Shown in pieces: positions 6,001 to 14,036 of a stretch of 38,357 bases of DNA; the first letter of the stretch is position 1, and each line of letters starts with the position of its first letter. The position numbers and the translations under genes were made by a program. The notes below the pieces were generated by a model, which ran no database searches, was not told the origin of the DNA, and saw only the letters and a list, made by a program, of their open reading frames with translations. Source of the stretch: Candidatus Roizmanbacteria bacterium CG02_land_8_20_14_3_00_36_15 (GTDB taxonomy: Bacteria; Patescibacteriota; Microgenomatia; UBA1406; GWC2-37-13); contig PEUF01000051.1 in assembly GCA_002780795.1 (NCBI GenBank), positions 1 to 38,357 of the forward strand, in the 5' to 3' direction.

Positions 6001-7515
6001 ATGTTTAATTACCAGGATATTATCTCTTTCTTCAAAAAAAAATTTAATCGAAAAGATCTTTTACTAATAGTTTTTTTAACGTTTTTATACCTGGTCAGCA
6101 GAATCGTTAACCTGGACAAATTTCCCATTTTCACCGATGAAGGCATCTATATCCACTGGGCCAAGATCGCCTGGCATGATGCCAGCTGGCGGTTTATCTC
6201 GCTCACTGACGGTAAACAACCGCTGCAGACCTGGGCAACCATCCCTTTTCTAAAACTTTTTCCCGGTAACGCTCTTCTGGCCGGCCGCCTGTTTTCTGTC
6301 GGTGCCGGATTTGCCGCTTTAGCCGGAGTTTTTAGTCTACTTTACTATCTCTTTGGTAAAAAGGCCGCTTTCCTGGGATCGTTTTTCTATATTATCACTC
6401 CTTATTTTCTCTTTTATGACCGGCTGGCTCTCACTGATTCTGCCGTTAACGCCACCTCAATCTGGGTACTGTTTTTTTCAATTTTAATGATCAAAACGTT
6501 GAGACTAGATATCGCTTTATTGTTTGGATTATTAGGAGGAATGACTCTTTTAACCAAATCTTCAACGAAAATGTTTTTGCTACTTTCTTTATTATCACCA
6601 ATAATTTTGATTGGTAGCTCCGGACTCAAAAAAAATTTATTGAAATCTATCAACTATCTAATTTTGTTTGTCGTTGTCGGCTTTTTATCTTTAGTTATAT
6701 ACAATGTCCAGAGACTGTCCCCTTTTCTTCATTATGTGGCCGAAAAAAATACCACTTTTGTTATGACTTTTTCAGAGTTTATCAAGGCGCCTTTTTCCAT
6801 CGTGGCCGGCAATATAAAGATCGTTCCTTGGTATATTTTCTGGGAAGCTGGTTGGTTAATACCGATCTTAGGAATTATCGGTCTTTTTTCTCTTTATAAA
6901 AAAAATCGTGGACTGGCTATCTATTTTTTTCTCTGGCTGCTTCTTCCTTTTCTGGCTATCTGCTTTTTTTCAAAAGTTGTCTTCCCTCGTTACCTAATTT
7001 TTTTTGCCAGTCTCCTGCTCATCCTTGCCAGCTACCAACTGAAACAGTTGCCTAAAAAGATCTTATTAGTCATATTTGTTCTATTAACGGTTTTTTTGCT
7101 CTACCTAAACTATCCTATTATTTTTAATTTTAAATCCATCTCTTTTCCGCCAGTTGATCGCGGTCAGTACATCGAAGGGCCACCGGCCGGTTGGGGAACA
7201 AAAGAAATCATCGATTACACACGAAATAAATCAATAATTAAACCGGTAATCATTTTAGCCGAGGGGAACTTTGGTTTGATTGCCGACATGCTAGATGTTT
7301 TTATAAAAAAAGACGATCGGATTGAGATTAGAGGCTACTGGCCATTGGAGGAAAAAAATCTTGTAGAAAACCAAAAGGAACTTGAACAAAAATATGTCTA
7401 CGTTGTCTTTCCCCACCGTGATCAATTTCCCCAAAACTGGCCGATAAGGTTGATTAAAAGATTCGATAAACCAACCAATAAATCAGCGATTTATTTTTTC
7501 GAACTGCAAAAATGA
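6001..7515 (+). CDS. GT39-family membrane glycosyltransferase
   Basis: A 504-residue polytopic protein. The first helix ends in SRIVNLDKFPIF, then TDEGIYIHWAKIA (Asp46, Glu47), the PMT-type acidic motif in the first outer loop. It is followed by DGKQPLQTW, equivalent to the GKPPL stretch of relatives. A soluble C-terminal part (from about 380) includes ADMLDVFIKKDDRIEIRGYW. Expected role: sugar transfer from a polyprenyl-phosphate donor on the outer membrane face. The stop overlaps the start of the next gene as ATGA (7512-7515), so the two are probably co-translated and may act together. Confidence 0.85.
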   Translation: MFNYQDIISFFKKKFNRKDLLLIVFLTFLYLVSRIVNLDKFPIFTDEGIYIHWAKIAWHDASWRFISLTDGKQPLQTWATIPFLKLFPGNALLAGRLFSVGAGFAALAGVFSLLYYLFGKKAAFLGSFFYIITPYFLFYDRLALTDSAVNATSIWVLFFSILMIKTLRLDIALLFGLLGGMTLLTKSSTKMFLLLSLLSPIILIGSSGLKKNLLKSINYLILFVVVGFLSLVIYNVQRLSPFLHYVAEKNTTFVMTFSEFIKAPFSIVAGNIKIVPWYIFWEAGWLIPILGIIGLFSLYKKNRGLAIYFFLWLLLPFLAICFFSKVVFPRYLIFFASLLLILASYQLKQLPKKILLVIFVLLTVFLLYLNYPIIFNFKSISFPPVDRGQYIEGPPAGWGTKEIIDYTRNKSIIKPVIILAEGNFGLIADMLDVFIKKDDRIEIRGYWPLEEKNLVENQKELEQKYVYVVFPHRDQFPQNWPIRLIKRFDKPTNKSAIYFFELQK

Positions 7516-9533
7516 AATATATTGGTATTTTAGTTTTCATTCTGTTGTCTTTTATTGTTTTTTATGAAATTTTTTCCTATAGAGGAATATATTTCTCTAA
7601 ATACGATAAAGATTATGCTCGAGATCTTTATGATCACTCACAATATAGTATTCCAATAAGTACAAGAACAATTAGTGATGAACTTTTATACCAAGTCGCA
7701 GGCAATGATTACTTTAAAACCGGGCAGCTTTTTACAATAAATCCCGAGGCTCCCCCATTGGGAAAATATTTGTTTGGCTTGTCTATCCTCATTTTTAACA
7801 ACGCTCAGATTATCTCAGTCTTTATTTTTTTGCTTTGCGCATTTTTCTATTTAAAAATTTCAAAATACATCCTAAAAGACAATATTTTTGTTACCCTTTC
7901 TTTGTTTTTGTTTATTTTAGAGCCTTTAATTTTTTCTCAAATGTCAAAAAGTATGCTTGATCTGCCTCAACTTCTTGCTTTTTTTATCCATATTTATTCA
8001 TTTTTATTGTTAATTGACGACGAGAAAAAAAGTGATTGGAAAATCTTTTTTTTGATATTTCTAGCCGGACTATCCCTTGGTTTTTTTATATCAGTAAAAA
8101 TTGGTTTTCTGGCGATTGCTATTATTTTGGCGGATTTTATCATTCTTTTAAAGAAGAAAAAAATTTTATATATCGTTCCAATCATTGGTCTTTCTGTTTG
8201 TATTTATACAATCTGCTATCTGCCTTATTTTCTTCAAGGAAATAATTTAATATCATTTATGAAAGCTCAAAAATGGATATTTCATTATTGGACGACTTCA
8301 AAAGTACAACCTATTTACGGAATGATTTTCCTGTCTTTTTTTACGGGATTGACAAAAGGCTGGCATCAAGGAGCTGTTTGGGAATGGGTTCCGGAATGGA
8401 CAATATTTTGGCCGATATATTTAGCCTCTTATCTGCTTACTCTTAGAACAGCTGCCGGAAATATAACCAAAATGAAAACAAAATATTTGTATCTTATTGT
8501 ACTTAGCGGATGTTTGCTTTTTACCTTGGCGTTTATTCCTCTATTTATAAGATATCTGTTATTGATTCTGCCTTTGTTAATTATTTTTTTTATTTTTTAT
8601 CTGAAAGCTTTTAAGCGTTTGTTTATCTTACTTTTTTCGGTTATTTTTCTTACCCAGATTTATCTTTTTTTCCATCCGAATCCTGACCAGGTTGTAAAAA
8701 ATATTAAAAGAACTTGGGAAAACGGAACCTATCAAGACATGTATAGTTTTTTATCCGGGAGTTCAATAAAAAAATTCAGTCGCTTGGAATTTTGGAGAAA
8801 AATGCAGTTATTGGAAAAAAAGCTTGGTGTTGAAAACAGAACAATCGACATTAAATTGGAGAAAATTTATCCTTGGAAAAACAAAGTAAACGCAAACTTT
8901 ACTATTCTTTATAAAACACGTTTGGGTATATATAAAAATATTCAGCCGGTTACTTTCTCCCGGGAAATCGGAATTTGGAAAATGGCATGGAAAGATAGCT
9001 TGATTTTGAAAGATTTTACATTTGATGATCAGATCATCAGCTCGTTTGCTTTGGGTCGCTTTGGGACTATTAAACTTCAAGACGGAACTGTTTTGAGTAA
9101 AGAAGGAATGCGTCCTTTTTTTCTTATTATCCCAAATCAAATAGAAGATGACAGAAAAATTCAAAATCAGATTGCAAAGTTGATTGGCAAACAAGCTTGG
9201 GATGTAGAAATAGTCTATCGGCCAAACAGTCAACCCGACATTCCTGTCGAGATTGGCTTTCTCAAAGAAGATATTTCATCAAAGTATTTGAAAAAAATAA
9301 AATTCTATGAAGCTGTTGTTGTTGAAGAAAGAAGAACACGTATCTACGATGAACAAACAATTAAAAAAATGACACTTGGAACAATTAAACGTATTGAGTC
9401 CAAATATTATTCTGTATTAAATCCTGGGTGGGGCGGAAAAGTATTGATTCAAAAACGGAATCACCAAACTGGAGTATTCCAGATGAAAGAAAAAAAAGAT
9501 GGCCAAGATCTTGTTATAGAAAATAATTACTAA
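7512..9533 (+). CDS. GT39 membrane glycosyltransferase fused to a MecA-like PBP N-terminal region
   Basis: 673 residues, much longer than its neighbours. Residues 1-388 are a GT39-type membrane part: first-loop acidic residues YDKDYARD (31-38), NPEAPPLGKYLFG (77-89) and about ten helices. After the last helix (about 366-388), residues 393-500 resemble the NTF2-like MecA_N domain of penicillin-binding proteins (TWENGTYQDMYSFLS at 401-415, then IWKMAWKDSLIL at 488-499). Residues 508-673 resemble the next PBP segment, with GRFGTIKLQDGTVLS (515-529) in the place of RGxIxDRNGxxLA. The protein ends at GGKVLIQ (641-647) and KKDGQDLVIEN, just where a PBP enters its transpeptidase domain, which is absent. 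No further PBP coding follows, since the next gene is convergent 23 bases away. The outside location is inferred from GT39 topology. The GT39 call is firm. The PBP resemblance is by eye. Confidence 0.8.
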   Translation: MKYIGILVFILLSFIVFYEIFSYRGIYFSKYDKDYARDLYDHSQYSIPISTRTISDELLYQVAGNDYFKTGQLFTINPEAPPLGKYLFGLSILIFNNAQIISVFIFLLCAFFYLKISKYILKDNIFVTLSLFLFILEPLIFSQMSKSMLDLPQLLAFFIHIYSFLLLIDDEKKSDWKIFFLIFLAGLSLGFFISVKIGFLAIAIILADFIILLKKKKILYIVPIIGLSVCIYTICYLPYFLQGNNLISFMKAQKWIFHYWTTSKVQPIYGMIFLSFFTGLTKGWHQGAVWEWVPEWTIFWPIYLASYLLTLRTAAGNITKMKTKYLYLIVLSGCLLFTLAFIPLFIRYLLLILPLLIIFFIFYLKAFKRLFILLFSVIFLTQIYLFFHPNPDQVVKNIKRTWENGTYQDMYSFLSGSSIKKFSRLEFWRKMQLLEKKLGVENRTIDIKLEKIYPWKNKVNANFTILYKTRLGIYKNIQPVTFSREIGIWKMAWKDSLILKDFTFDDQIISSFALGRFGTIKLQDGTVLSKEGMRPFFLIIPNQIEDDRKIQNQIAKLIGKQAWDVEIVYRPNSQPDIPVEIGFLKEDISSKYLKKIKFYEAVVVEERRTRIYDEQTIKKMTLGTIKRIESKYYSVLNPGWGGKVLIQKRNHQTGVFQMKEKKDGQDLVIENNY

Positions 9534-9556: not shown

Positions 9557-10870
9557 TCACTTTCTAATAAATTTAAATAGGTATTTATTTTTATCAATAA
9601 AAAAAGTTTTGGCCAACTTTAAATTTTCTGTAGCCGTAAACTCCCAACGGCTTTCTTTATAAACAATATTTAAATTTGGAGAAAAAATATATAAAGTTTT
9701 CAAATTATTATATTCTAATTCACTATTTGATTTAGGAATCTGATGGTCTTTTTCCAAAAAAAATCTTAAATAAAGAGCGCGCATCTCCAATAAAGTTTTC
9801 TGTTACATTGTACGGTAAAGTAGGCAAACTAATAAAAAAATACCGAATAAAAAGTTCTTCTTTGGAAAAGATGATTGTTATCAGTAGTGATATCAAAATA
9901 TAAACAAGAAAGTCCTGACGGAGTTTCATCTTTTTTTTTCGATATATAAAAACCAAATAAAGTAACAGCAATAATCCCAACAGCACTTTAATTGTAAATA
10001 ACAGACTTATTAGAACCGGTATATAAGTTGCTTCGTGATCAAAACCAAATATTATTAATAATATTCTAAATATATATGTTATTTTTATATACCATGGAGT
10101 TAATGATAACACATTGGTCGAACTAAAATTAGAAATATTGAAAATAAATGCTTGTGTTAGATAAAATCTATTTCTTAGCTCAAAAATAATGATCGGCAGC
10201 AATCCAATAAATAATCCTCATATGTAAAGAAATGATATTTTTTTATCTTTCAGTTTTATAAATAAATAAAAAATCGCCAGGAAAATTACCGGGGCAACAA
10301 AATAATGCAGATTTATTAATAAACCACCTAACAATCCACATAAAAATATCTTAATAAAAGACATATTAGGATTTTTGCTATTAAAACAACTTAGATATAA
10401 GTACCAAAAAATTGGGGCAATTGTAAGGACAAAATTTGGATTCCAATAAAACCTGATATAAGAAACAATCAATGGAGATAAAGCATACATTAACGTCACA
10501 ATCAAAGCTTTTGTCTCATTCTTTAAATACTGATGTGCAAGCTTGTAAAAAAAATATAAGGCTATTATCATTAACCCAATGTTTATATAAATCGGCCCAA
10601 AAACACTATTGTTTGTAAGCATTAAACCCAAAACACCAAAATAATAACTAAGAGAGCCGAAATAAATTTCTCTTATGCCATATTGACCAAACGATAAAGG
10701 TGGACCGATTAAAGTCAGTTTTTTTGCCTGCAAAATCCTTAAAGATTGCAATGTATCTCTGGCCATATCCGCAGCAAACCAATAGGTTTGTCTTAAATTA
10801 AAATAGTAAAAAAAATAGAGACAATAATTATTAATAGTAAGAATATGGAGTTTTGTCTTTTGATCATCAT
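9557..10870 (-). pseudogene. Broken GT39-family glycosyltransferase
   Basis: The start is an ATG at 10870 that overlaps the upstream stop as ATGA. The first 20 or so codons (MMIKRQNSIFLLL) run into a stop after a T8 tract (plus-strand A8 at 10808-10815). One extra T restores the frame and gives FNLRQTYWFAADMARDTL, matching the acidic first-loop motif of the paralogues at 1219 and 17631. The frame then continues to an in-frame TGA (10218-10220) inside a membrane segment and goes on in the same frame as GLFIGLLPIIIFELRNRF. A second T8 tract (plus-strand A8 at 9756-9763) needs one T removed to reach the natural C-terminus (LEKDHQIPK to FKFIRK, stop at 9557). Repaired length is about 437 residues, close to its relatives. 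Three lesions suggest a decaying gene. Sequencing error at homopolymers or transcript slippage could explain the shifts, but not the TGA. Confidence 0.75.
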
Positions 10871-12593: not shown

Positions 12594-14036
12594 ATGACCG
12601 AACTGAAAAATATTAAATCAAAAACTGTCTGGAGTGCTTTCAGCCTTTTTTTTCAAAGCGGCTACTCGGCTTTTCTGGGGTTAGTGGCCAATTTAGTTTT
12701 AACCATCATCCTTTCTCCCAAAATATTTGGTATTTATATTACTCTTCTTTCCATGATTTCGTTTTTGAACTATTTTTCCGATATTGGCCTGGCAGCTTCA
12801 TTAATTCAAAAAAAGGAACTGGCTGAAGAAGATATCAAATCTACTTTCACTACTCAACAAATATTGATTATTTCCTTGATTACCATTGGTTTTGTTTTTG
12901 GCCCCTTCGTCAAAAAGTTCTACCAATTACCAACTGACGGTTTATATCTTTATTGGGCATTATTGATTTCGTTTTTTATCTCGTCTTTAAAAACAATCCC
13001 CTCGGTCTTTCTGGAAAGACAGATTAAGTATCAAAAAATTGTTTTTGTTCAGGTGATGGAAAGTACCGTCTTTTACCTGGCGATAATTATCTTCGCCTTG
13101 ACCGGGTTCGGCCTGCGAAGTTTTATCTACTCTGTCCTTTTACGCGCCGTCACCGGGCTCGTCCTCATCTATATCATCTCTCCCTGGATGCCGAAACTAG
13201 GTATCTCAAAAAGAAACCTCAAAGAGTTGTTATCTTTCGGAATACCTTTCCAAGCCAGCTCCTTTTTAGCCTTATTCAAAGATGATTTAATCATTTTATT
13301 CCTAGGCAAAGTAGTTGGTTTTGAAGGAGTCGGCTATATCGGTTGGGCCAAGAAATGGGCGGAGACACCGATAAGGATCGTCATGGATAATGTCACTAAA
13401 GTACTGTTTCCGGTTGTCTCACGCCTGCAAGACAATAAAGCCAAAGTGGGCCAGGTAATAGAAAAAATTCTTTACTATCAAACCGCCATCCTTGCCCCCA
13501 CTCTGTTAATCGCCATCTTTATTATGCCTAAACTGGTTTATGTAATCCCTAAATATACTAAATGGGCTCCGGCTCTTCCTCTTTTCTATATTTTTGTTGC
13601 CTCATCATTTTTGGTAACCTATCTTGCTCCATTTATTAATTTTTTCAACGCTTTGGGCAAAGTAAAGATTTCCTTCAGTTTCATGTTGATCTGGACGGTT
13701 ATCGTCTGGATTTTGACCCCTATTTTTACTAAATTATTCGGCCTTTATGGTTTTCCGATTGTCCATTTAATTATTTCTTCAACTTTTGGTTTCGTCGTGA
13801 TTGTGGCTAAAAAAATTATCCCTTTTAATTTCTTTAAACCGATTAGTATCTTCATTACCTCAATTTTCCCCATGGCTCTGGCGATGTATATTATCAATTC
13901 ACGCCTATCATCTAGCTTAATTATTTCACTTTTTTCTGTGTCGTTAACCGGTGGTTTAGTGTATATAATTTTCCTAAAATATATTTTTAAATTAGACATT
14001 GCTAAAAACATTAATTATTTGCTCAACCGTCAATGA
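12594..14036 (+). CDS. Wzx-like oligosaccharide flippase (MOP superfamily)
   Basis: A 480-residue protein with about twelve to fourteen hydrophobic helices. The N-terminus KSKTVWSAFSLFFQSGYSAFLGLVANLVLTIIL and the FGIYITLLSMISFLNYFSDIGLAASLIQKK stretch are typical of polysaccharide biosynthesis flippases (RfbX/WzxC). The basic WAKKWAETPIRIVMDNVTKVLFPVVSRLQ loop in the middle is also typical. It would turn lipid-linked glycans from the inner to the outer membrane face, linking cytoplasmic GT2/GT4 enzymes to the outward-facing GT-C enzymes around it. Its TGA stop overlaps the start of the next GT2 gene as ATGA, so they form an operon. Confidence 0.88.
   Translation: MTELKNIKSKTVWSAFSLFFQSGYSAFLGLVANLVLTIILSPKIFGIYITLLSMISFLNYFSDIGLAASLIQKKELAEEDIKSTFTTQQILIISLITIGFVFGPFVKKFYQLPTDGLYLYWALLISFFISSLKTIPSVFLERQIKYQKIVFVQVMESTVFYLAIIIFALTGFGLRSFIYSVLLRAVTGLVLIYIISPWMPKLGISKRNLKELLSFGIPFQASSFLALFKDDLIILFLGKVVGFEGVGYIGWAKKWAETPIRIVMDNVTKVLFPVVSRLQDNKAKVGQVIEKILYYQTAILAPTLLIAIFIMPKLVYVIPKYTKWAPALPLFYIFVASSFLVTYLAPFINFFNALGKVKISFSFMLIWTVIVWILTPIFTKLFGLYGFPIVHLIISSTFGFVVIVAKKIIPFNFFKPISIFITSIFPMALAMYIINSRLSSSLIISLFSVSLTGGLVYIIFLKYIFKLDIAKNINYLLNRQ

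Follow-up and report, generated by a model that had tools for sequence, protein, structure and literature searches.

Outer domains that recognize the acceptor are common among GT-C glycosyltransferases. In PglB/STT3/AglB and in EmbC, the GT-C core is followed by a C-terminal soluble domain on the outer side that takes part in acceptor binding. For the GT39 enzyme MtPMT, mutagenesis has established a requirement for D74 in the loop EL1, D176 in EL2 and R441 together with Y444 in EL5; the enzyme tolerates the exchange of R to K and, partly, of Y to F, and its layout comprises 11 transmembrane (TM) helices with the N-terminus inside and the C-terminus outside (PMC12331936). The MIR domain of PMTs influences their processivity (PMC7759382). 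Class B penicillin-binding proteins (PBPs) also act on GT-C-type partners: the TM helix of PBP2 stimulates RodA (PMC10449877), and ECL4 of the SEDS glycosyltransferases is a target of the class B pedestal (PMC8078798).

Here, we describe a gene in which these two worlds meet in one chain. It lies in a stretch of 38,357 nucleotides, hereafter the window, from Candidatus Roizmanbacteria bacterium CG02_land_8_20_14_3_00_36_15 (contig PEUF01000051.1). Our analysis confirmed that the protein is a fusion of a GT39/PMT-type GT-C enzyme (residues 1–388, 11 helices) with the entire non-catalytic part of a class B PBP of the MecA type. It is a conserved new domain architecture assembled from known families. 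The first-pass annotation of this DNA knew of no described fusion of this kind, and our search of open-access text found no earlier description of a GT39–PBP fusion either. A comparison with plasmids gave no match.

Domain architecture

The fusion gene is an open reading frame of 673 codons with an ATG start and a clean stop (Table 1). The start codon is supported by its overlap with the stop of the PMT_2 gene directly upstream (ATGA).

Table 1. Features of the fusion gene and its surroundings, in window coordinates.
Feature	Position (strand)	Residues	Remarks
PMT_2 glycosyltransferase gene	6001..7515 (+)	504 aa	Directly upstream of the fusion
Fusion gene, whole	7512..9533 (+)	673 aa	GT39 – MecA_N – PBP_dimer, without transpeptidase
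GT39/PMT-type GT-C membrane core	7512..8612 (+)	1–367	Ten TM helices, common to tail-less sisters; based on conservation, PMT/PMT_2 matches in relatives and AlphaFold helices, the TM count being a reading of helices and charged loops
D56–E57, 'DE' motif in EL1	7677..7682 (+)	56–57	D56 is the counterpart of MtPMT D74
D150, MLD motif in EL2	7959..7961 (+)	150	Counterpart of MtPMT D176
R347–Y348 in EL5	8550..8555 (+)	347–348	Probable counterpart of MtPMT R441/Y444
TM11	8613..8675 (+)	368–388	Probable former PBP signal anchor; tail outside
MecA_N (PF05223) NTF2-like domain	8709..9020 (+)	400–503	Pfam, family profile, Foldseek
PBP_dimer (PF03717)/pedestal domain	9027..9530 (+)	about 506–673	Ends at the transpeptidase boundary
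Wzx-like flippase gene	12594–14036

The PBP-derived tail is recognized by several means. In the window protein, MecA_N reaches 25.7 bits against a Pfam cut-off of 22, and the NCBIfam PBP2a model matches residues 373–630 (E = 5e-7), beginning at profile position 8. PBP_dimer stays below threshold in the window protein alone (12.7 bits against a cut-off of 24.4, E = 0.18), whereas it is clearly above cut-off in relatives of the same architecture (E = 1e-12 in L039, 1e-9 in L047 and 6e-8 in L006). In proteins of the class with the same length and domain order, Pfam matches above cut-off occur for MecA_N, for PBP_dimer and for PMT or PMT_2 in varying combinations, and these relatives support the two assignments, PMT and PBP_dimer, that fall short in the window protein. 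At E up to 0.01, MecA_N was matched by 16 and PBP_dimer by 12 of 21 tails. The profile built from these 21 tails matched the solved structures of B. subtilis PBP3 (7bn9; E = 3e-32, profile positions 7–306 of 307), PBP2a (E = 4e-26, positions 5–306) and E. faecium PBP5 (E = 2e-24), and the matches stop where the transpeptidase segment begins. The AlphaFold model of the tail (pLDDT 91.5) was placed by Foldseek on PBP3 and PBP2a at about E = 6e-22 with the whole tail covered; the TM-scores of 0.40–0.58 and rmsd values of 10–13 Å leave no doubt about the domain identity but make the placing of the lobes relative to each other uncertain.

These results agree almost to the residue with the first-pass annotation, which had read the protein as GT39 (1–388), an NTF2-like domain of MecA_N type and a PBP dimerization/pedestal domain, and had suggested profile searches and structure prediction as checks. 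An absence of profile or structural matches, or an outer domain of unrelated origin, would have spoken against that reading; neither was found, and the unrelated domain is ruled out by the Pfam calls in relatives, the family profile and the Foldseek matches to PBPs. PF00905 was not matched in the window protein, and the reading frame ends before the transpeptidase domain in all intact members; because this domain (SxxK/SxN/KTG) is absent, the fusion protein is not a class B PBP. In the PBP_dimer part of the tails of L083, L085–L093, L118 and their relatives, a Glu-Cys-Cys motif is conserved that may possibly form a disulfide or metal site; it is absent from the Roizmanbacteria tails.

The GT39 half of the window protein received no Pfam call; PMT_2 was called in 13 and PMT in 8 of the 27 aligned GT halves, and weak profile matches to Pmt4 and Pmt2 were obtained. 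A profile of the GT halves alone matched nothing among solved structures at E up to 5, and the residue-level mapping onto PMT therefore rests on loop and motif context, without structural superposition. D56, K85, D150, R347 and Y348 are invariant in 22 of 22 fused proteins. D56 is also invariant in 24 free, tail-less relatives, which have R or K at position 347 and Y or F at 348. The spacing in EL5 differs between the fusion (RY) and MtPMT (RxxY). The placement of the window protein in GT39 is based on the PMT/PMT_2 matches of its relatives and on the conservation of catalytic residues. Since the active-site residues of MtPMT are invariant in the fused family, the enzyme half is probably active.

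The two halves are joined by an additional hydrophobic helix, TM11 (at about residues 368–388), which directly precedes the tail in 22 of 22 fused proteins and is absent from 23 of 24 tail-less relatives (the exception being L082). Judging by the positions of helices and charged loops, an enzyme with ten helices and no tail would have its C-terminus in the cytoplasm, and TM11 would put the tail outside, where PBP ectodomains must be. TM11 is probably the former signal anchor of the PBP itself, given that the match to the MecA model opens at model position 8, within the anchor part. The linker between TM11 and the tail is very short: the TM helix spans residues 368–386, and the next helix starts at residue 391.

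Distribution and origin

A search in other CPR genomes, also suggested in the first-pass annotation, recovered the same fusion in about 24 intact copies across Microgenomatia, very small bacteria of which most are uncultured; the copies come from Roizman-, Levy-, Gottesman-, Woese-, Curtiss-, Shapiro-, Davies- and Collierbacteria. Judged by its closest relatives, the genome of the window falls with the Roizmanbacteria. The tail profile matched 29 of the 374 genomes of the class, among which the matches in G375, G185 and G120 are ordinary PBPs or chance; the matches L059 and L060 were likewise rejected as ordinary PBPs. A few of the other matches are interrupted by contig ends or frameshifts, and broken fusions occur in the draft genomes G020 and G142. 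MecA_N exceeded its cut-off 15 times in the 374 Microgenomatia genomes: 14 of the matches are fusions, and the last (L075) is a chance match that lies antisense inside a methionyl-tRNA synthetase-like gene region. In 380 genomes drawn from the phylum, there was a single further match, L160, which is an unrelated NTF2-like protein. A MecA-type PBP that could have been the direct donor was thus not found elsewhere in the lineage, in either the 374 Microgenomatia or the 380 phylum genomes.

In a tree of GT39 halves, made with a quick method and containing some long branches, all 23 fused proteins and the tail-less L082 form a clade of 24 with a support of 99. As all fused proteins fall into one GT39 clade, the data fit a fusion that arose once and was followed by losses. 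L082 (7890–9095) belongs to the fused clade and has lost the tail while keeping TM11. In the Shapiro/Davies/Collier clade the pedestal has degraded, and Beckwithbacteria L084 (3200–4657) lacks it altogether; this protein of 486 aa consists of the GT39 core and the NTF2 (MecA_N) domain and is encoded directly behind a tail-less GT39 gene. The NTF2 domain stays in each case.

This pattern bears on two simple explanations. The first would regard the protein as a degenerate class B PBP with a functionless tail, or as an assembly or annotation artefact, in keeping with the missing transpeptidase and the broken copies in some draft genomes. It is very improbable: the stop at the transpeptidase boundary, already noted in the first-pass annotation, recurs with the same architecture across independent assemblies, in about 24 intact proteins, which rules out chance, an assembly artefact or a premature stop, and the catalytic residues of the GT half are invariant. 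The second would have the PBP piece gained by chance together with TM11 and retained as a passive anchor or stalk, mainly for stability or topology and without specific binding. The co-occurrence of TM11 and tail is in line with such a stalk, as are the erosion of tail parts in one clade and the retention of the GT half in L082. We nevertheless consider it improbable, because across many candidate phyla the intact tails, at 20–25% identity, have retained the core of the NTF2 domain and in most cases the entire pedestal, and genomes of about 1 Mb would be expected to lose a useless domain of 285 aa.

Genomic context

In the window, the fusion is part of a large glycan cluster (positions 78–23400) with several PMT_2, GT2 and GT4 enzymes, a PTPS_related/YfhO-like protein and a Wzx-like flippase. 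Similarly, in genomes of the Roizman, Levy, Shapiro, Collier and Beckwith types, the gene is found mostly among GT2/GT4/PMT_2/YfhO genes, often with a Wzx-like flippase; in the Gottesmanbacteria group, it is found among unrelated genes. No conserved neighbour that would name a pathway is common to all lineages examined. At five loci (the window, L094, L084, L002 and L004), a PMT-type gene directly precedes or overlaps the fusion, and this tandem arrangement recalls, by analogy, the PMT heterodimers. Two adjacent reading frames of 156 and 182 aa on the reverse strand of the window (9732–10766) look like one frameshifted PMT-type membrane glycosyltransferase. A conserved membrane protein of about 170 aa without a Pfam match is encoded near the fusion in L086 (6369–6872) and at eight other Gottesmanbacteria-type loci.

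The host genome has five other transpeptidase-domain matches, two of them on class-B-sized reading frames, so that the fusion is not a substitute for the PBPs of the host. These ordinary PBPs imply a wall to dock on, and they are compatible with the idea of the first-pass annotation that the PBP half binds peptidoglycan or a partner in wall synthesis or the divisome and brings the enzyme to sites of wall growth for glycan attachment. Much of the PBP2a outer region whose crystal structure has a peptidoglycan analogue bound at the allosteric site (3zg5) has its counterpart in the tail, and in L095 (6040–16833), the fusion adjoins a DUF4012 gene about 3 kb upstream of mraZ and a PBP gene. Docking of this kind is a serious but rather unlikely alternative, considering that the contexts are otherwise mostly glycan clusters or unrelated genes, that the most conserved residues of the tail are fold-core positions, and that the pedestal is the part that degrades or disappears while NTF2 is kept. 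Because contexts vary, the pedestal erodes and one relative carries NTF2 as its sole tail domain, a role beside the active site of the glycosyltransferase is at least as likely as docking.

Possible function

The reading that we judge most likely, and to which we give about an even chance, is that the PBP half serves as an outer scaffold that positions the acceptor and/or regulates in cis a GT-C core of the polyprenyl-phosphate-sugar-dependent GT39/PMT kind. It is favoured by the very short linker, the confident joint model and the precedents of RodA–PBP2 and the SEDS pedestal. The GT-C core would transfer a sugar from polyprenyl phosphate at the outer side of the membrane, and D56 would act as the base. 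TM11 and the short linker would hold the NTF2 and pedestal modules on the outer face of the enzyme, and the PBP-derived module over the active face may position the acceptor and/or hold the enzyme in an active state. The acceptor would probably be a glycan or protein associated with the wall or surface. The confident AlphaFold model of the whole protein (pLDDT 90.9, pTM 0.88) suggests a fixed arrangement of GT half and tail, and the erosion of the pedestal with retention of NTF2 in one clade fits a role near the membrane face. Against the in-cis scaffold, we count the faster evolution of the tail (mean identity about 0.25, compared with 0.33 in the GT half) and the fact that the SEDS parallel comes from a different GT-C family. 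A bolder version of the scaffold reading, which we regard as unlikely, is that a class B PBP has been converted into an in-cis activator and acceptor guide hard-wired to GT39, a one-chain counterpart of RodA–PBP2 that would decorate the growing wall or a surface glycan and not polymerize peptidoglycan.

The fusion shows that a PBP's non-catalytic half can exist without the transpeptidase and be put to new use in another GT-C enzyme. If this half regulates or guides the glycosyltransferase, the family would be a natural experiment on pedestal and NTF2 domain alone, with relevance to PBP2a, RodA–PBP2 and FtsWI. The fusion could also serve as a marker gene for surface glycosylation in Microgenomatia, in which envelope chemistry is almost unknown.

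Comparison with known systems

The tail has the same order and register of TM helix, MecA_N and PBP_dimer as the MecA-type class B PBPs (S. aureus PBP2a, B. subtilis PBP3 and E. faecium PBP5), but it lacks the transpeptidase, and its TM helix forms the final helix of a glycosyltransferase. The enzyme half resembles the GT39 PMTs (M. tuberculosis PMT and yeast Pmt1/2/4) in its 11-TM layout with N-terminus in and C-terminus out, the DE motif, the Asp in EL2 and the Arg/aromatic pair in EL5; however, the outer domain of PMTs is a MIR beta-trefoil or a small EL4 motif within a loop, whereas that of the fusion is a C-terminal PBP module. The SEDS–class B PBP synthases (RodA–PBP2, FtsW–FtsI) likewise pair a GT-C-type glycosyltransferase with two class B PBP parts, the TM helix and the pedestal. 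They do so with two chains, with lipid II and with the transpeptidase present, in contrast to the single chain and GT39 enzyme of the fusion; to our knowledge, PBP2 and FtsI have no MecA_N domain. Finally, the C-terminal outer domains of PglB/STT3/AglB and EmbC are unrelated to PBPs, unlike the tail of the fusion.
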